Of a DNA stretch of 38,021 bases, positions 18,587 to 38,021 are shown piece by piece (the first letter of the stretch is position 1; each line of letters opens with the position of its first letter). The notes under the pieces were generated by a model. The model had not been told where the DNA came from. It ran no database searches and worked only from the letters and a program-made list of their open reading frames with translations. The position numbers and the translations under genes were made by a program. Origin of the DNA: Eggerthellaceae bacterium (lineage in GTDB: Bacteria > Actinomycetota > Coriobacteriia > Coriobacteriales > Eggerthellaceae); contig JAFUBE010000444.1 of the NCBI GenBank assembly GCA_017460365.1, positions 1 to 38,021 on the forward strand, in the 5' to 3' direction.

Positions 18587-19723
18587 CTACGCGTCCGCCT
18601 GCTCGCGCTGCACCTGCAGGCCCAGCGCCCACATCCAGCGCGCCATCTCGCTGACCACGGCGATCTTGGCGACGTTGGTGTGCTTGCCGGCCTTCTTCAG
18701 CGCGTCGTACTTCATCTTCAGCCGCGCGTTGGCCTCGAGCGCGATGTCCTCCACCTGGGGCGACACCTCGTGCCCCGGGCGCAGGTACTTCTTGTGCGCC
18801 GTCTGGCGCGATATGGTCGAGATCCCCTCCACGAGGGCGCGCCGGAGATGAGAGCTGCCCTCCTTGGTGATCTTACCCTGGCGGCGGTTGTCGCCCGTGG
18901 AGTCCTCGGATGACGTGCAGCCGATCCAGCGCGACACGCGCCTGCCGCTTCGGAAGCGCGAGAAGTCGCCGAACTCGGCGCAGGCCAGGAAAGCGGTCTG
19001 CACGTCGACGCCCTTCAGGCGAATGAGCGCGTCCACGTAGGGCTTCCACCTGGGTTTCTCGGCCTCCGCGGCCACCGCCTTCGCCAGTTCCTTGGAGCTT
19101 CGCTCCATGCGCTCGACCATCTCGACCTCCATCTTCAGCGCCATGTTCGACAGCGGGTCGCCCAAATCGCACGAGAGCGCCCACTTGCGCCAGGCCGGGG
19201 TCCACGTCGCCCTCAGGTTGCCGGCCGGCGTGCGCTCGTTCCACACGTACCCGTGCTTGACCAGCAGCATGCTGCCTCGCTGCTTCGCAGACTTCACAAG
19301 CTTCGCTGTAGTGTCGGAGGCCCGCGCCAGGTCCCTCGCGCCTTCGACCTCCGGATCCGGCACCCACACGTAGGAGACGTCGCTCGCTGGGTTGCACATC
19401 TCGCGAAGCACCACGCCAGCGTCGTGCCGGTCGTCCTTGTGCTTCTTGTTCTTCGGCGACCTGGGGATGGTCGACACGGCCATCACCTCACACGCAACGC
19501 CCCCGCGCTCCAAGAACCTGCTCAGCCAGAATCCGGTGCAACCGGACTCGTAAGCGCAGCGGACGGGGCCGGGCAGCTTCTTCGCCCACTCCAAGAGCTC
19601 GTGCTCGTGCCCCTCGCCGGAAAACGTCTTGGCCCAGCACTCGCCGGTGTCCGGCCTCAGCGCCTTGCACGACACGCTGCGCGCGTGGACGTCCATGCCT
19701 ACCTGCGTGGTATACTCGCTCAT
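18587..19723 (-). CDS. IS110-family (DEDD) transposase / Piv-like recombinase
   Basis: 378 aa. The N-terminal RuvC-like domain has the DEDD residues: VGMDVHARSV (D10), CAYESGCTGFW (E), then KDDRHDAGVV (D, D). The C-terminal Tnp_20 domain has LKGVDVQTAFLACAEFGDFS and RRVSRWIGCTSSEDSTGDN, followed by RRQGKITKEGSSHLRRALVE, containing the catalytic serine region. Length is normal for the family. IS110 enzymes are guided by a bridge/seek RNA encoded next to the gene; the related Piv protein is a DNA invertase. The frame looks intact and its context is unusual: it abuts an invertible tail-fibre locus. I cannot fix the element's ends, and no terminal inverted repeats are expected. Confidence 0.92.
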   Translation of the reverse strand: MSEYTTQVGMDVHARSVSCKALRPDTGECWAKTFSGEGHEHELLEWAKKLPGPVRCAYESGCTGFWLSRFLERGGVACEVMAVSTIPRSPKNKKHKDDRHDAGVVLREMCNPASDVSYVWVPDPEVEGARDLARASDTTAKLVKSAKQRGSMLLVKHGYVWNERTPAGNLRATWTPAWRKWALSCDLGDPLSNMALKMEVEMVERMERSSKELAKAVAAEAEKPRWKPYVDALIRLKGVDVQTAFLACAEFGDFSRFRSGRRVSRWIGCTSSEDSTGDNRRQGKITKEGSSHLRRALVEGISTISRQTAHKKYLRPGHEVSPQVEDIALEANARLKMKYDALKKAGKHTNVAKIAVVSEMARWMWALGLQVQREQADA

Positions 19724-19969: not shown

Positions 19970-20857
19970 ATGTTGTTCGAGCAGGCGGTTTACGAGTACG
20001 TCGACGACAAGCAGTTCGGCCGCAAGAGGGTGCGCCCCAACACCATGGAGGGCTACCTGAGCGCCATCAAGTGCCACCTCATGCCCAAGTGGCAGGGCCG
20101 CGAGATGGAGTCCATCGGGTCAGACGAGCTGCAGGAGTGGCTCGACGGCTTCGAGCTTCCCGGTGCGGCCGACAATGCGTGGAAGACGTTCAGGCAGGTC
20201 TACCGCTGGTGGCTGAGGGCCTACCGCGTGCGCATCTACGACGAGACGCAGGGCGTCGAGCCGCCCACGGCCCCCAGGCGCAAGCCCAACGCGCTCACCG
20301 CCCGCCAGGCCAACGAGGCCATGCGCGACATGCGCGGCCAGGGCTTCGAGGCGTGCGCGCTCGTGCAGCTCTCGTGCGGGCTGCGCCCCTGCGAGGCCGT
20401 CGCGCTCACGTGGGCCGACGTGAACCTGTCCACGGGCGAGGTGAGCGTGACCAAGGGCCTACACGAGGCGTTCGGCGAGGTCTACGAAAGCCCGACGAAG
20501 ACCGAGAAGAGCACGAGGACGGTTGTGCTGCCGCGCTACGCGGTGGACCGACTGCGCGAGCTGAGGCGCGCCGGGGGCGCGAGGCGATCGGACAGGCTGT
20601 GCCCGTCGGCCCCGTCGAAGTACCGCCGCCAGGTGCGCTCGTGGTTCGCCAAGCGGGGCCTCAAGATGTGCGCGCAATGGCTGCGGCACACGTTCGGGAC
20701 GCTCTCGCTGCAGGCCGGCACGCCCATAGAGACGGTGGCGCTGATGCTCGGCCACGAGGGCATATCCACCGCCTACGAGCACTACCTGGTGGGCAACTCC
20801 GCGATCATGCGCGACGCCCAGAGGGCCTTCGGGCGGCTGATACTGGACGCGGCGTGA
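19970..20857 (+). CDS. Tyrosine recombinase, probable tail-fibre DNA invertase
   Basis: 295 aa, ATG behind AAAGGAAG. Core-binding domain about 1-100 (QAVYEYVDDKQFGRKRVRPN). Catalytic domain with R139 (LSCGLRPCEAVAL), lysine near 177-180 (TKTEKSTRT), QWLR239-H240-TFGT, GHE262-264 and nucleophile Y272 (EHYL). It has no arm-binding N-terminus, like Rci-type shufflon enzymes. It is distinct from the integrase at 14654-15823 and has no attP beside it. Its TGA overlaps a 13-bp site (GAGTCCGTATCCC) whose inverted twin lies inside the tail fibre gene 587 bp away, and inversion would leave this stop codon intact. I infer it inverts that segment. Confidence 0.88.
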   Translation: MLFEQAVYEYVDDKQFGRKRVRPNTMEGYLSAIKCHLMPKWQGREMESIGSDELQEWLDGFELPGAADNAWKTFRQVYRWWLRAYRVRIYDETQGVEPPTAPRRKPNALTARQANEAMRDMRGQGFEACALVQLSCGLRPCEAVALTWADVNLSTGEVSVTKGLHEAFGEVYESPTKTEKSTRTVVLPRYAVDRLRELRRAGGARRSDRLCPSAPSKYRRQVRSWFAKRGLKMCAQWLRHTFGTLSLQAGTPIETVALMLGHEGISTAYEHYLVGNSAIMRDAQRAFGRLILDAA

Positions 20858-20868
20858 GTCCGTATCCC
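20856..20868 (+). repeat. Inversion site, left copy
   Basis: GAGTCCGTATCCC, perfect inverted match of 21455-21467. It starts within the TGA of the recombinase gene and is read as Glu-Ser-Val-Ser in the cassette frame. The T of the TGA lies outside, so inversion cannot remove the recombinase stop. Confidence 0.85.
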
Positions 20869-21170
20869 AAGCAGAAATCATCAACGGAACGATTGCCAGC
20901 GGGATGAGGGGCAGCTTCTTTGTTTGGAAGCTCGGGGCAATTCACGTGGTGCAAGTTAATGCCATGGCCTTGACCGTGCCTTCTGGGTCGTGGACTCTCA
21001 TAGGCACAGTTCCGCAAGGATACAGGCCAGATAGGGAAGTCCGCTCTGTAGGCTACGGCGGCGGAAAGTCATTTGTAATCAGGCTTTTGACCAATGGCAA
21101 TTTAGAGGTAATTTGCGATGAAGCAATGTCCGATATATGGACGCAGGGCCAGCTTATCTATTGGGTTTAG
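20856..21170 (+). CDS. Silent alternative C-terminus of the tail fibre (partial gene)
   Basis: The frame is open from 20841 to a TAG at 21168-21170 and enters the inversion site in the phase ESVS, the same as in the tail fibre. It continues QAEIINGTIASGMRGSFFVW. Later parts read ALTVPSGSWTLIGTVPQGYR and LLTNGNLEVICDEAMSDIWT, ending GQLIYWV. This is the typical phage tail-fibre tip fold ('..W..IG.LP.GYRP...v.....dG.l.v......w......Y'). An internal ATG at 20904 could make 88 aa alone, but it has no ribosome binding site. It is best read as a promoterless cassette that becomes the fibre's C-terminus after inversion. Confidence 0.8.
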   Translation, partial: ESVSQAEIINGTIASGMRGSFFVWKLGAIHVVQVNAMALTVPSGSWTLIGTVPQGYRPDREVRSVGYGGGKSFVIRLLTNGNLEVICDEAMSDIWTQGQLIYWV

Positions 21171-21206
21171 CGGCAGCCGTCATACACGTCAGGCTGACAG
21201 AGCACG

Positions 21207-22868
21207 TCACTTGACCATGATGTACCTCAAGCCGCCGCTAGTCAGGTTGTTCTGGATGGTGTAGTTGCCATCGTTGACCCCCAGCGTTACGACGTTGTCG
21301 TTGTTCACAATCAACAACGCCTGGCTCGGATAGAAGAACGCGACGAAAGAACGGTCTGACCTGTTTCCCCCCACCACGAGTGCCATGTTGCCGGAGAAGG
21401 ACAGCGTTCCCGCGCTGTTTATTACCCCGAACGTAATGCTGCGGTCCTTTACCAGGGATACGGACTCCCCGAGCGTGGCAATCGCCGCCGCGTTGTCGGC
21501 TATCGCCTGCTCCGCATCGTACAGCGAACCCGCGGCGTTCTCGGACTGCGCGGCGTCCAGGTTCGTGCGCGCGGCAGCGGCGGTCGACGCTCCTGTGCCG
21601 CCGTGGGCTACCGGCAGGAGCCCCGTCACGCCAGGGCGCGGCGTCGCGTCGTAGGGGCTCACAGCGTTCTCGCTCGCCAGGTCCGCGAGCATCGAGGGAA
21701 CGGCTGACTTGCCCGTGCCGCCACGCGCCACCGCCAGCGTGCCGCTCGTTATGTTGGATGCCGAGTGCGTGTGTGCTATCGCGGCGAACTTCGTCTTCAG
21801 CTTCGTCCACAGCGCGCTCCATACCGTCGTGTTGACCACGTTCGTGCTGGTAACGGTCTGGTCGTCGTCCATGATGGCGTTCATCTGCGCCGTCGTCATG
21901 GGGGTTATGGACGCTTCGGTTACGCCGTGGCGCTCCCAACGGGAGTTCGGACGGTCCCACTCCCACTCCACCCACTGGTCGTCGGCTGTCGGGTTCGCCT
22001 CGGGAACGTAGTACAGCGTGCCGTCGTCCGGCGATTGCACGGTCGGCTTGCGCGTCGCGGCGTCGTACTCGCCAACCGCGCAGTAGTACTTGAGCCAGCC
22101 GCGCGACCTCTGCTCCATGCTCGCGAACTCTAAGACTCGGTCGGCTTCCGCGCTGGCCCTGGCCGCTTCAGCCGACACGCGCGCCGACTCGGCGTTCGCG
22201 CGTCCCGCCTCCGCGCTCGCCCGCAGCGATTCCGCGTTTGCACGGCTCGTCTCCGCAGAAGCGCGCGACGATTCCGCGCTGGCCCTGGCGGTCTCCGCTA
22301 TTGCGCGCGCCCCTTCCGCGCTCGCTCGGCCAGATTCCGCGCTGGCCCTCATCGCCTCAGCTGCCGCCCTGGCGTTCTCTGCTGCGACGCGAAGCGCCTC
22401 AGCCGCCTCGATTGCGGCCTCGACCTCGGCTGCGCCGGCAGCGGCCTCGTTCGCTCGGCTCACGGCCTCGTTGATCTCGCTGATGTGCTGCTCTCCTGGG
22501 TCGACGCCCTCGCGCGCCCCGTCGAGCACGACCACGGCGATGCGGTTGGTCGAGCAGATAACGTCATCGCCGTCCAGCACCTCGACATACGCCATGTCGG
22601 TGCGCCCCGCGACCGCCGCGGCATACGACTCGTCGATGTCGAACGTTGCGACGTTGCCAGAAACGTCACCTGCCACCGAGTAGTAGTACTCTCCACCGGG
22701 CAACCGCATGCAGAAGCGCGCGCCGAGGCCCGTGAGGTCCATCGCCACCCCGTTGTCGTACACCGAGACGGCCAGCGTTGTGCCGTTTTTGTCACCCTGC
22801 CCGAGGTAAACGACGGGTGTGACGGCGGGACGCTTGCTCACGTCGAGGTTCAGTGTTTGGACATTCAT
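21207..22868 (-). CDS. Tail fibre / receptor-binding protein with switchable C-terminus
   Basis: 553 aa. N-terminal BppU-like baseplate-attachment domain (about 1-125; PAVTPVVYLGQGDKNGTTLA, then ARFCMRLPGGEYYYSV). A long coiled stalk of ASAE/ARAAAE repeats follows (about 140-255). A trimerising tail-fibre region comes next with HTHSASNITSGTLAVARGGT and the second GLLPVAHGGTGAS. The inversion site encodes ESVS at residues 468-471; the last 82 residues (LVKDRSITFGVINSAGTLSF through LTSGGLRYIMVK) are the present variable tip. The + strand cassette at 20856-21170 offers an in-frame alternative. The protein should bind the host surface and determine host range. Confidence 0.88.
   Translation of the reverse strand: MNVQTLNLDVSKRPAVTPVVYLGQGDKNGTTLAVSVYDNGVAMDLTGLGARFCMRLPGGEYYYSVAGDVSGNVATFDIDESYAAAVAGRTDMAYVEVLDGDDVICSTNRIAVVVLDGAREGVDPGEQHISEINEAVSRANEAAAGAAEVEAAIEAAEALRVAAENARAAAEAMRASAESGRASAEGARAIAETARASAESSRASAETSRANAESLRASAEAGRANAESARVSAEAARASAEADRVLEFASMEQRSRGWLKYYCAVGEYDAATRKPTVQSPDDGTLYYVPEANPTADDQWVEWEWDRPNSRWERHGVTEASITPMTTAQMNAIMDDDQTVTSTNVVNTTVWSALWTKLKTKFAAIAHTHSASNITSGTLAVARGGTGKSAVPSMLADLASENAVSPYDATPRPGVTGLLPVAHGGTGASTAAAARTNLDAAQSENAAGSLYDAEQAIADNAAAIATLGESVSLVKDRSITFGVINSAGTLSFSGNMALVVGGNRSDRSFVAFFYPSQALLIVNNDNVVTLGVNDGNYTIQNNLTSGGLRYIMVK
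21455..21467 (-). repeat. Inversion site, right copy (inside the tail fibre gene)
   Basis: On the - strand GAGTCCGTATCCC, codons GAG TCC GTA TCC, Glu468-Ser471 of the fibre. It is the perfect inverted partner of 20856-20868. The 586 bp between the two sites contain both alternative fibre ends, converging on stop codons 36 bp apart (21170 and 21207). Confidence 0.85.
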
Positions 22869-22904: not shown

Positions 22905-25052
22905 CTAGTCTGACCATGTCCAGTTATCGCTGTACTGCCCGTTGTAGATTCCAAATCCTTTGCTGCCGCACCGCATGTACGCGCTAGAGCTGTTTATGCA
23001 AAGGAAATGCCTACTATCGGTTCCAATTAATATTTCTGTTGGCGAAATGTCGACTTTCCTATTGCCGTTTTTGTCGCCCAATAAGATGTCGTCTGCGTAT
23101 AATCGCAAGCTCCCTGAACTCCCAGACCGAAGTGGCCCGATTCCGTAAAGCGTCGCCGTTTCTGTCCCGTTTGTCTTCCATCGCAAGATTCCGAAACTAT
23201 CGATTGTCAGCCCGATTCCGCTGGAATTAGGGTCGAACGATATATTGAGCGACCCGGTAAGGGTGGCGCTCTCAGCTGTCATATCCTTCGTTTTCAGGGC
23301 GCCTGTACTGAGGTTCCATGAGTTTTTGTTGGCAGCATCCGAGATAACGCCTGCCTTGATGTAGTCCGCGTTGATTTCGCCGGCTTTTATATACGATCCG
23401 TTGATATACACAAGACCGTTCAACAAGTAGATGCCTTGCGTCTGCCCATCGTTCGTAAGCTTGTTGAAGATGGATGACTGCGTCTGGCCGTCCACCTTCT
23501 CCTGCGCGATGGCCGCGACGGTCTTGCCGCCGACCTTGGTGCTGGCGGCCATCTGGAGCTCGCCGGTGTCGAGGTCCCAGTAGTTCCCCGACCCCGCCGA
23601 GCCGATGTAGCCGGCCGTTATCTGCGCCGCCGTGACCAGCTCTGCGGCGACGTGCCCGCTCGTGAAGACGGTCTTCCAGTTCCAGGCGCCCTGGACCGTC
23701 TTGGTGTTCGCTATGCGGATTGTGCCGCCCTTGACCTCCACGACGGCATCGGCCTCTGCGCCCACCAGCGGGTCGCTCACGGCCTTGTCGTACGTCCTGA
23801 GGCCTTGGCCCTCGGTGATGTACGTGTAGCCGCCTGTCGCGTTTATCTCGGCGTTGATGCGGTCGAGCAGGCGGCTCAGGTAGTCCGCCGTCGAGAGCGT
23901 GCCGCCGTTCATCTGCTGCACGACGGCGGTCACCCTCGACACCTGCCTGCCGAGCGAGCCGAACATGCCCGTGAGGCCGTTGTTGATGTAGCCGATTGTG
24001 AGCTGCGTGGTGTTGCCGCTCAGCTCGTCCATGGTCATCGCGACGACGCGGCCAGACAGGCGCAGGCCCTCGCCGAACTTGCGGTCCACGATGTGGACGG
24101 CATCTCCCAGGCCCACGCCCTGCATGTCGATGCCCTCGCGGGCCAGCTGCAGCACGTCCACCTCGTAGGTGATTCTTGGAAGCGTGTAGTCGTCGAGCAC
24201 GGAACGCGCCCAGGCAAGCAGCTCGGCGGGCGTCTCGCAGTCCGAGTTCTCGACTTCGAGCGTGGGGTACTCCCAGCCGCCGTTGCCGTCGGGAAGCTTC
24301 GCCAAATCGACCATGGACGCCTTCTCGAGGTAGTCCTTGCCGCCGTTGACGCTCTCGATGGTTATCTTGCGCCCGTAGCCGCCCGAGTCGGTCTGCTCGC
24401 CCTTGCCACGAGGGGTTATGCGGCAGTACAGCGGGCCGTCCGCTATCGTCCTGCGCACCGACGATAGGTCGGCCCCGAAGTCGAAGCGCCTTCTGGCGGT
24501 CTGGTCGCCCATCTTGTCGTAGAGGTCCACCTTGCGGGCCGTCACGCCCGAGAGCGTGGACACCTCGATGGTCGCGGACAGCTCGCCGCCCCATGTTCCC
24601 ACGAGGGTGGCCATGGCGTCCCAGCCGTCGGTGTCGTACATGCTCGCGCCGCCGGTCGCGGTGCGCGTGACCGTGCCGCGAGACCAGCGCGAGGTGCCGG
24701 AAAGCGCCGCGTCGAGCGCCACGCCGGCTGAAACAGGCGAGTCGGTGCCTGGCATGCGCGAGACACGAGTACCCATCAGGTCGGGCTGAACGCTCCACGT
24801 GCAGTAATAGGTTCCGATGGGCCGCTCGCCCGAGTCGTGGAGCGCGTCCACGCCGTACACGACGTACTCGCGCCACACGCCCCGGTCGTCCTGCAGCAAG
24901 ATGCGGTTGCCCTGCTCCAATTGCCTCGTCGTGGTGATGGAAAGCGCGTGCTCGCCGTTGACCTGCTCGGTGCGGGTCAGCTCGAACACGTCGCCTTCCG
25001 CCAACTCGAACAGCGGGGCGTCGAAGCGGTCGAACACCATGATCCTGCGCAT
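22905..25052 (-). CDS. Tail tip protein (Tal/prophage endopeptidase-tail type)
   Basis: 715 aa from the ATG at 25052, overlapping the Dit stop (TGATG). The N-terminal about 380 residues resemble the siphovirus tail-associated Tal/gp18 baseplate hub: FDRFDAPLFELAEGDVFELT, IGTYYCTWSVQPDL, VGLGDAVHIVDRKF, then TTQLTIGYINNGLTGMFGSL. A helical segment (LSRLLDRINAEIN) leads into a beta-helical fibre-like region with AELVTAAQITAGYIGS, IKAGEINADYIKAGVISDAA and ILIGTDSRH. The last about 180 residues are coded by visibly more AT-rich DNA than the rest, suggesting an exchanged receptor-facing domain. It follows Dit and precedes the fibre, as in lactococcal and Listeria phage baseplates. Confidence 0.82.
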   Translation of the reverse strand: MRRIMVFDRFDAPLFELAEGDVFELTRTEQVNGEHALSITTTRQLEQGNRILLQDDRGVWREYVVYGVDALHDSGERPIGTYYCTWSVQPDLMGTRVSRMPGTDSPVSAGVALDAALSGTSRWSRGTVTRTATGGASMYDTDGWDAMATLVGTWGGELSATIEVSTLSGVTARKVDLYDKMGDQTARRRFDFGADLSSVRRTIADGPLYCRITPRGKGEQTDSGGYGRKITIESVNGGKDYLEKASMVDLAKLPDGNGGWEYPTLEVENSDCETPAELLAWARSVLDDYTLPRITYEVDVLQLAREGIDMQGVGLGDAVHIVDRKFGEGLRLSGRVVAMTMDELSGNTTQLTIGYINNGLTGMFGSLGRQVSRVTAVVQQMNGGTLSTADYLSRLLDRINAEINATGGYTYITEGQGLRTYDKAVSDPLVGAEADAVVEVKGGTIRIANTKTVQGAWNWKTVFTSGHVAAELVTAAQITAGYIGSAGSGNYWDLDTGELQMAASTKVGGKTVAAIAQEKVDGQTQSSIFNKLTNDGQTQGIYLLNGLVYINGSYIKAGEINADYIKAGVISDAANKNSWNLSTGALKTKDMTAESATLTGSLNISFDPNSSGIGLTIDSFGILRWKTNGTETATLYGIGPLRSGSSGSLRLYADDILLGDKNGNRKVDISPTEILIGTDSRHFLCINSSSAYMRCGSKGFGIYNGQYSDNWTWSD

Positions 25053-25768
25053 CACAACCACCTGTCCCGCCACGTGACCGTCGCCGCGCCCGTGCCGTTG
25101 TCCATGCGGAGCGTGTGGGCTCCTGGTTCGAGTTCGAGCCAGTCGCTGTCGAGCGTGGGGATGGCTGCGGAGCCGTTGACACTCAGCGTGCGCTCGCCGC
25201 AGTCGGCGACGATTGCGCGCGCCGACGCGCTGCCCGTGGCTATGTGGAGGTAATCGCCCTCGTCGAGGCGCAGGCCCCACACGAGCGACGAGGCGTTTCG
25301 CACCGCGTTGGCCGTGACGACCGGGCGCGTGGGGTAGGTGCCGCCCACGACGAACGTCACGGACCCGCCAGAGGGGACGGTGATTGAGTGCTCGTCGCCG
25401 TAGGCGATGGGGTCGGCCAAAAGGAACGTGAGCTTGCCCGTCTCGCCGCCGAAGAGCCTGTCGAGCTTCACTGCGCCGCTGGGTACGGCCATGTGGAACC
25501 TCTCGGGCGCGTCGGGCAGCACGAGCCGCCTGGGCCCGTCAACGTCCAGCCACGCCCCCAACGTGGACAGCTTGTCGCGCCTGTCGTGCGCGTTTCCGAT
25601 TGCGACGACCGTGAACGAAACCTCGGTCCTGCCCCACGTCCGTGAGAGCACCGACGCCCCGTCCGCGCCGGGCGGCTCCGCGAGGCTCACCGAAGAGTTG
25701 AGCGCCGTCAGCTGGGGGTCGCCGCATATCAGCAGCTCGCATAGGTCGTGACCGTCGAATAGGATCAT
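25052..25768 (-). CDS. Distal tail protein (Dit-like)
   Basis: 238 aa from the ATG at 25768 (ATGA with the tape measure stop). It opens MILFDGHDLCELLICGDPQL and has TEVSFTVVAIGNAHDRRDKL, then GAWLDVDGPRRLVLPDAPER, FLLADPIAYGDEHSITV and VGGTYPTRPVVTANAV: the Dit/sipho-tail family (SPP1 gp19.1-like N-terminal ring domain plus C-terminal galectin-like domain). It joins tail tube to baseplate. Upstream open frame to 26407 is antisense-like overlap with tape measure and is discarded. Confidence 0.85.
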   Translation of the reverse strand: MILFDGHDLCELLICGDPQLTALNSSVSLAEPPGADGASVLSRTWGRTEVSFTVVAIGNAHDRRDKLSTLGAWLDVDGPRRLVLPDAPERFHMAVPSGAVKLDRLFGGETGKLTFLLADPIAYGDEHSITVPSGGSVTFVVGGTYPTRPVVTANAVRNASSLVWGLRLDEGDYLHIATGSASARAIVADCGERTLSVNGSAAIPTLDSDWLELEPGAHTLRMDNGTGAATVTWRDRWL

Positions 25769-31031: not shown

Positions 31032-31936
31032 TAGGCGCTCGGCGTGTCGCCGGTGAGCAGCACGAACTCGGAGGTGGACTTCACGGCGAAGGCGACCTCG
31101 ATTTCGGCGCGGACGGCGAACATGTTGTTCTGCCACAGGTTGATGGTGGAGTCGCCGTCAGCCAGGGTGGCCTGGTCGGAGATGGCGAGCTTCACGCCCT
31201 CGACCGTGCCGTACACGGCGTCGGAGAAGTCGCCGGCGATGCCCTCGATGGCAGCGGTGCCGGGCGAGCCAGCCGCGCCAGCCACGTGGATTGCCTTGGC
31301 GACCTTGACGGGCGCGCCGAGGATATCGCCGACAGTGTTGGAGCCGACACCTGCAGTGAACAGCGGGCGGCTCTGGCCGTCGACGGCGGCGAGCACCTTG
31401 GACTTGCCGACGGGCGAGAGCGCGATGCCGTTCATGACGCCGTTAGCTGCACTGATGGCGCTGTCCACGGCGATGAATTGGTCGTACAGCGTTTTGCCAG
31501 ACGCGGGGTTGAGCGAGACCTTCGTCGCGCCGCCCAGCACATCGAAGCCGGTGCCGGGAGCGGTCGTGCCCATGATCGTCGCGTCGAACTTAGCTGCCAA
31601 CGCGTAGGGCAGGCGGCGCACGAGCTCTGCGTACAGGGCGTCGGCGTCGCGTGCGAACTCGTTGGAGAACGGCTCGATGACGGCCAGCTTGTAGGGCGTG
31701 ATGGCCTTCTTGCCGAACGTGTGGCGGCTGACAGGCTTCGCTGCCGTCTCGTCCACCCAGTTCGCAGTCGGCTCGCCGGTGATGGTCTGCACCGTCACGC
31801 CGTTGCCGGGCATGTTGATGCGACGGGCCAACTGCATGAAAGCGGACTCTTCGAGGATGTTGCCCCAAATTTCGGACGAGACCTCGGTGGGCAGCGCGAC
31901 GTTGGTGGTGCCTCGGTTGATGTCGATAGCGGTCAT
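31031..31936 (-). CDS. Major capsid protein (HK97 fold)
   Basis: 301 aa behind AAAGAGGTAAC. GTTNVALPTEVSSEIWGNIL, EESAFMQLARRINMPGNGVT, VQTITGEPTANWVDETAAKP, then ITPYKLAVIEPFSNEFARDA and LPYALAAKFDATIMGTTAPG: the P22-/HK97-type phage capsid pattern (lp...s..i...l.e.s....la....m...g......t..p.a.Wv.E...k....). A small separate scaffold gene lies directly upstream. It assembles the head shell. Confidence 0.92.
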   Translation of the reverse strand: MTAIDINRGTTNVALPTEVSSEIWGNILEESAFMQLARRINMPGNGVTVQTITGEPTANWVDETAAKPVSRHTFGKKAITPYKLAVIEPFSNEFARDADALYAELVRRLPYALAAKFDATIMGTTAPGTGFDVLGGATKVSLNPASGKTLYDQFIAVDSAISAANGVMNGIALSPVGKSKVLAAVDGQSRPLFTAGVGSNTVGDILGAPVKVAKAIHVAGAAGSPGTAAIEGIAGDFSDAVYGTVEGVKLAISDQATLADGDSTINLWQNNMFAVRAEIEVAFAVKSTSEFVLLTGDTPSA

Positions 31937-31958
31937 TTCGTTACCTCTTTCTTATCGG

Positions 31959-32444
31959 TTACTTCGCGTTCACGGCCTCTGCAAAAAGCGATGCCGTGCT
32001 CTTCTTGCCGGCGGGCGCCTTCGCCTCGCCGTAGTCGGGGACGTTCGGAAAACGCTGAGAGTTACCCACGTACGCCTTGATCTGCCCGGCGTGCGCTTCG
32101 AGCTCTTCCCTCGTGGTGCCGCGCAGCAGATCGGCTTCGATGCCTTGCTCTTTCGCGATTTCCGCTCGCAGCTCGGCGAGCTTGCGCTCGTCTTCGAGCG
32201 CCTTGAGCGCCCCTTCGGCCTTCTCGGCCCTCTCGACCGCCTTCTGCAACTCGCTCTTGCTGGCCTCTTCCGCCTCGTCGTACTTGGCGGCTTTGGCCTT
32301 CGCTTCGTCGTAGTCGGCGTACTTCGCCTTCAAGCGGCCCAGGCGTTCGCCGACAATGGCGTCCACCTCTGCCTGCGTGAAGGTCTTCTCCGCAGTTGCG
32401 CCCTGCGTGGCGTTCTCGTCCACCGTGTTGGTGTTCTCGGGCAT
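31959..32444 (-). CDS. Scaffolding protein
   Basis: 161 aa from the ATG at 32444 behind AAAGGGG; the frame extends upstream only through a terminator. An acidic N-terminus (MPENTNTVDENATQGATAEK) is followed by TFTQAEVDAIVGERLGRLKA, the 'FTQ.evd.iv..Rl.r.k.k' hallmark of phage scaffold proteins, then a long Ala/Glu/Lys coiled coil (about 50-115). The C-terminal KSTASLFAEAVNAK is probably the capsid-binding end. It directs procapsid assembly. Confidence 0.88.
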   Translation of the reverse strand: MPENTNTVDENATQGATAEKTFTQAEVDAIVGERLGRLKAKYADYDEAKAKAAKYDEAEEASKSELQKAVERAEKAEGALKALEDERKLAELRAEIAKEQGIEADLLRGTTREELEAHAGQIKAYVGNSQRFPNVPDYGEAKAPAGKKSTASLFAEAVNAK

Positions 32445-37880: not shown

Positions 37881-38021
37881 CGTGTGGGCGCGCGAAAATA
37901 AAGCCCCCCGTCAGCCGCCTCACCACTTCCTCGAGGTCGCGTCGCGCTTCCTCGCGCGCTCGCCTCTTGCCAAGGCGAGCACCTGGGCAACGGAGCGGTT
38001 GCCTCTCCAGTTGTTGCAAGC
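37881..38021. repeat. Terminal redundancy, copy 2
   Basis: Exact copy of bases 1-141. It contains the last 34 codons of the HNH gene on the - strand (from 37920) and should be removed when the genome is closed into a circle. Confidence 0.95.

Follow-up and report, generated by a model that had tools for sequence, protein, structure and literature searches.

The segment at positions 20856-21467 of the window, by which we mean the whole 38,021-bp stretch analyzed here, is very probably a two-state Rin-family switch that inverts DNA and thereby swaps the receptor-binding heads of a phage tail fibre. In the proposed mechanism, the tyrosine recombinase Rin would bind two inverted rix sites, one over its own stop codon and the other within the fibre gene, and strand exchange inside an 8-bp core would flip the 612 bp between them. 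With each flip the unchanged BppU-anchored stalk would receive a different C-terminal head, and the Rin reading frame would be kept. If the heads are receptor-binding domains, the phage population should consequently hold two adsorption types. We infer these biochemical roles, and that this phage inverts the segment and so alters its host range, from the anatomy of the locus, the codon phase of its sites and the in-frame outcome of a flip, together with the homology that ties its recombinase, its sites and its silent tip to other Rin loci and the site-bounded rearrangements of relatives, as far as these can be read from sequence. An invertible fibre tip with a dedicated tyrosine recombinase had been proposed in a preliminary description made from the letters of the window, and comparative tests on the sequences of relatives support it as the best explanation.

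The window is a whole contig (C1017) of a gut-type Eggerthellaceae bin (G000), and its ends (1-141 and 37881-38021) consist of the same 141 bases, so that it very probably represents a phage genome that is complete, assembled as a circle and about 37.9 kb long. Its gene order is of the siphovirus type, with terminase, portal, capsid, tail tube, tape measure, Dit, a Tal-like protein and the fibre, followed by the rin/tip locus and then by lysis genes and an integrase (Table 1). The lysis genes and rin are about 2.6 kb apart in the window, compared to a few hundred bases in the related loci L002 and L003. The bin has a further copy of the IS110-family transposase gene, 86% identical, on its contig C984, in keeping with the bin being the host of the phage. 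The 3' end of the Tal-like gene (22905-23500) has a GC content of 47-57% against about 66% around it, as have both fibre tips, and is perhaps another recently exchanged tip, one with no visible rix sites. Rfam and tRNA scans of the window were empty, and promoter and terminator scans at the rin/fibre locus gave no more hits than in shuffled sequences.

Table 1. Features of the rin/fibre locus and its neighbourhood in the window.
Feature	Position	Strand	Basis
IS110-family transposase gene, immediately upstream of rin	18587-19723	-	PF02371, PF01548
rin-type tyrosine recombinase (putative invertase), 295 aa	19970-20857	+	PF00589 (4e-14), PF14659 (3e-8); phrog_1
rix site at rin stop	20856-20868	+	crossover core GTCCGTAT at 20858-20865
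rix site within fibre gene	21455-21467	-	ESVS, residues 468-471
Predicted invertible segment, 612 bp, two states	20856-21467		in-silico inversion
Silent tip (alternative receptor-binding head), start-less at its beginning	20856-21170	+	ESVS + 100 residues
Gap between converging tip stops, 36 bp	21171-21206		coordinates
Tip now joined to fibre, ESVS through stop	21207-21467	-	reading frame
Fibre constant part: BppU_N baseplate-attachment domain, 7-residue repeats, stalk	21468-22868	-	PF10651 (5e-11); 21-nt repeat units
Tal-like tail protein, neighbour of fibre	22905-25280	-	phrog_12312 (8e-73)
Separate phage integrase, 389 aa	14654-15823	+	phrog_1 (4e-49); outside rin clade

Rin carries the PF00589 domain of tyrosine recombinases and is not a serine recombinase of the Gin, Cin or Min kind. 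Since a separate integrase is encoded in the window, rin is a second tyrosine recombinase gene, distinct from the first and adjoining the receptor-binding fibre gene. Its SAM-like core domain starts at residue 3 and its catalytic domain at residue 128, compared to residue 175 in the integrase, and the N-terminal arm-type domain of lambda-type integrases is lacking. In a phylogenetic tree, Rin and 22 relatives form one clade of 23 (support 100/99); the eight phage integrases in the tree, with that of the window among them, fall outside it, this being a small integrase sample in which some branches are long. Rin is 35-38% identical to its rix-bearing counterparts in Bifidobacterium phage PMBT6 and Siphoviridae sp. 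ctl617, and 34-83% identical to the remaining relatives (the Rin proteins of Bb423phi1 and Eggerthella lenta themselves lie outside the compared set). Five residues, R139, K177, R239, H262 and Y272, are invariant across the family and appear to fit the conserved residues of tyrosine recombinases. In the HxxR motif, the usual first catalytic histidine is replaced by Gln236 in the window and by other residues in relatives, the position not being conserved.

The two rix sites form a perfect 13-bp inverted repeat, GAGTCCGTATCCC, at exactly the coordinates given for it previously, and no further exact copy is present in the window. The whole 4.53-Mb bin has only two exact copies of its 12-bp core, both at the rin/fibre locus, and no extra rix sites or stray tips were found elsewhere in the bin, from which very short contigs may be absent. 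With exactly two sites in the window and the whole bin, the locus is a two-state Rin switch rather than a shufflon, which comprises multiple cassettes. By itself the repeat is not beyond chance: 0.22 perfect 13-bp inverted pairs spaced 100-2000 bp apart are expected in a region of 2.9 kb, and at least one arose in 15% of Markov-simulated regions of this size, while about 3.1 pairs are expected per window and seven distinct ones are seen. Because the length of the repeat alone is not significant, the case rests on its position, its codon phase and its conservation in relatives. The rix site may also resemble the sfx core of R64.

As to position, the TGA stop codon of rin overlaps the first bases of one copy, and the other copy reads as ESVS inside the fibre gene (21207-22868, minus strand; 553 aa), both as described earlier. 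The silent frame likewise opens with ESVS; it had been presented as a second tip with no start of its own, which holds for its beginning, but the frame has an internal ATG at 20904. The two tips do converge on stops separated by the short gap that had been reported. As the codon phase of rix is identical on the two sides, a flip in either direction would be in frame and leave Rin intact. Inversion in silico yields a fibre of 571 aa, in which 82 tip residues are replaced by 100, leaves the recombinase unchanged with its stop regenerated, and places the old tip in the silent frame; the clean swap foreseen for either orientation is thus borne out in the computed product. By extension from the Rin family, the recombinase would be active and the fibre would switch in the window phage itself. 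The bin contains only one orientation of the segment, and IMG/VR has no contig near-identical to the phage and no opposite-orientation copy of it. No relative turned up when IMG/VR was searched with the stalk, with the silent tip or with the active tip, so there was no opposite-orientation copy to compare. A DNA junction scan of IMG/VR with CTCGGGGAGTCCGTATC matched two contigs (L073 and L074), which show no rin, fibre or tip homology and were taken as chance matches.

The identity of the heads is best seen from the silent tip. In phmmer comparisons within the collected set (about 1e-5) it proves related to tips that other loci carry on a stalk, and it shares with related heads the motif T-x-P-x-G-x-R-P. 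An AlphaFold2 model of it is an all-beta domain (pLDDT 85), whose 24 best PDB matches in Foldseek (E up to 0.001) all come from the lactococcal phages bIL170, p2 and TP901-1 and are either receptor-binding protein (RBP) heads or baseplates, with TMq 0.72-0.78 and E 8e-5 to 1e-3 to the RBP heads; among these structures, 2fsd is taken by us to be that of bIL170. Matches were also obtained to viral models that bear the name of a receptor-binding protein or a minor tail protein. The active tip folded as a single sequence reached a pLDDT of only 42 and this model was discarded. At the other end of the fibre, the BppU_N domain is a part of TP901-1-type baseplates. The matches of the silent tip, in both sequence and model, together with this N-terminus make a switch of receptor-binding heads well supported.

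Homologues of rin were found in 16 of 138 Eggerthellaceae genomes, as well as in IMG/VR contigs and in the phages PMBT6 and ctl617; in the other 14 searched genomes of the window's own genus no rin was found. Relatives within the family are, by record title, Adlercreutzia, Enterorhabdus and Parvibacter, with loci in Adlercreutzia caecimuris B7 (L043) and Parvibacter caecicola DSM 22242 (L050). The closest relatives of the window locus are six IMG/VR contigs (L002-L006 and L010), presumably from rumen, judging by their sample numbers. In PMBT6 and ctl617 the homologue is annotated as an integrase, although PMBT6 has another one: in its genome (MK932884.1) the annotated second integrase at 31228-32100 is the Rin homologue, with rix-like sites downstream, and the phage integrase lies at 189-1391. 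In nearly all loci of sufficient length, a 12-bp site with the consensus ATTCCGTATCCC lies at the end of rin, beginning 2-8 nt from the first base of the stop codon, and further copies follow downstream in both orientations; this arrangement is not shown by L037, where the contig ends soon after rin, nor by L041, L042 and L055. The last site is inverted and lies in frame within an open reading frame that continues upstream as the stalk in all of the 22 loci checked. At 146 of 153 sites the phase used by the window gives an open tip frame of 45 aa or more, compared to 52 and 20 sites in the other two phases. The number of heads per locus ranges from two (the window, L035 and L065) to twelve (L047), and at least two relatives look equally reduced to the two-head form. 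The first head of L008 (25 aa) and sites at contig ends were left out as evidence of working heads. The array of L047, from an uncultured Coriobacteriia bacterium (CATLBX010000001.1), is unusually large: the 2.3 kb behind rin contain twelve rix sites ATTCCTTGTCCC, of which eleven are inverted.

The site itself may be narrowed by comparing its copies. Positions 1 to 8, which read TTCCGTAT in the consensus, are identical among all copies within each locus (22 loci, 101 sites), while between loci several of these positions agree in only 42-69%. Over the 12 bp, within-locus identity is 0.975 compared to 0.783 in 2000 shuffles (sd 0.011, maximum 0.820), and beyond this stretch the similarity drops to background, apart from a weak GGG to its left. 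Identity within and variation between loci is what homology-dependent strand exchange would leave. The core falls on the 8-bp rix, 5'-ttccgtat-3', given for E. lenta prophages (PMC8778435). Both copies in the window deviate alike from the family consensus, with AGTCC for ATTCC. The outer bases form an imperfect palindrome, GGGAT...ATCCC, which would plausibly serve as recombinase-binding arms.

Rearrangements between closely related loci have their breaks at these sites. L064 and L066 (rin 99.6% and stalk 98.4% identical) carry the same six heads in a different order and orientation, and order and orientation also differ among the seven heads common to L009 and L063 (rin 99.0%, stalk 97.2%); within each pair a different head is expressed. 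In a model that permits nothing but inversions between sites of opposite orientation, 240 of 11,520 comparable arrangements can be reached for the first pair and 1,440 of 161,280 for the second, and in both cases the partner is among them, at four and five steps, respectively. Of the L066 array B-A-F-G-J-C, only heads F and G are present in L065. This is as expected from a deletion between sites of the same orientation, but the evidence is weak, since L065 is an 11.7-kb contig of a fragmented provirus and may reflect an assembly effect. Over 3.4 kb, which include four heads and the stalk, L052 and L057 are 100% identical, but between their rin genes identity falls to 70%; this places a mosaic break at or near the rix of the rin stop.

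Other explanations of this anatomy differ in how well they account for such data. That Rin is a plain phage integrase and its repeat a coincidental attachment site is hardly credible: PHROGs does group Rin with integrases, and 13-bp inverted repeats are common by chance, but the window has its separate integrase, the rin clade stands apart from integrases with high support, and relatives hold several sites per locus in both orientations. The diversity of tips might instead arise when phages recombine homologously or pass tip cassettes to one another horizontally, with no inversion in place, and the mosaic break near rix in L052 and L057 would fit this. We regard this too as improbable, as L064/L066 and L009/L063 have the same sets of tips in inverted orders, and homology between the sites of one locus is confined to about 12 bp.

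A less remote alternative, though in our judgement still unlikely, is that the anatomy was inherited from an active shufflon and that the two-tip remnant no longer flips. The single orientation seen, the apparent collapse of L065 at same-orientation sites and the decayed look of some tips elsewhere (the first tip of PMBT6 has 25 aa) are in line with such a locked locus. Against it, the recombinase is intact with its family-invariant residues, the two sites of the window are still identical despite their one-base departure from the consensus, and both tips are open to full length. An inversion switch is the reading that we retain; the points that count against it are the lack of an opposite-orientation copy in the bin and IMG/VR, the insignificance of the repeat by itself, the non-conserved histidine of HxxR and the discarded fold of the active tip. 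Beyond the window, it is possible, though somewhat less likely than not, that Rin loci form a family of recombinase-site pairs whose core drifts in concert within a locus and differs between loci, and that multi-head arrays collapse by same-orientation recombination into two-head switches which, like that of the window, have no same-orientation pair and so are unable to lose heads.

Inversion of tail fibre genes by Gin (phage Mu) and Cin (phage P1) depends on serine recombinases and an enhancer. These systems share with the window locus one inverted pair, two states and alternative C-terminal tips, but differ in the type of recombinase. In the Rci shufflon of IncI plasmids a tyrosine recombinase swaps C-terminal segments behind a constant N-terminus; there, the target is pilV of the conjugative pilus and multiple segments are involved, as opposed to a phage fibre. 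The window locus is a member of the published Rin family, and a tyrosine fibre switch is thus a known kind. The Rin shufflon was described in Bifidobacterium prophages (Bb423phi1 and others), with inversions seen in virion and lysogen reads (PMC6109161), is reported for E. lenta clade 1 prophages (PMC8778435), and is mentioned in passing elsewhere (PMC12282274). Like the window, the Bifidobacterium loci have a second, non-integrase tyrosine recombinase beside a receptor-binding gene, a constant N-terminus with swappable C-terminal heads of the lactococcal RBP type, and short asymmetric sites upstream of each head (PMC6109161); in the window, such a repeat lies inside the constant gene and at each head. 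Between the published Bifidobacterium rix, TTCCCTAACCC, and TTCCGTAACCC of the Bifidobacterium-type loci in our set there is one difference in 11 bases, and the published loci have several heads and more than two sites, unlike the two heads and one inverted pair of the window (PMC6109161). The E. lenta system belongs to the same bacterial family, its Rin directly adjoins small Rv heads, and its rix shares seven of eight bases with the window core (ttccgtat and gtccgtat); it is multi-cassette, unlike the window, and no two-head form was found in the accessible part of that paper (PMC8778435). The novelty expected of a compact tyrosine version accordingly does not extend to the tyrosine mechanism, already published as Rin, but no description of the one-pair, two-tip form was found in the open-licence literature, and it may have been described elsewhere.

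In that literature, tyrosine-recombinase switches of receptor-binding heads are known only from a few Bifidobacterium and Eggerthella prophages. The window locus and its relatives extend Rin switches across the Eggerthellaceae and metagenomic phages, and narrow the crossover site to about eight bases. How deletion between same-orientation sites is avoided was left as an open question (PMC6109161), and one relative suggests that it is not always so. The two-state form is simple enough for a plasmid test.
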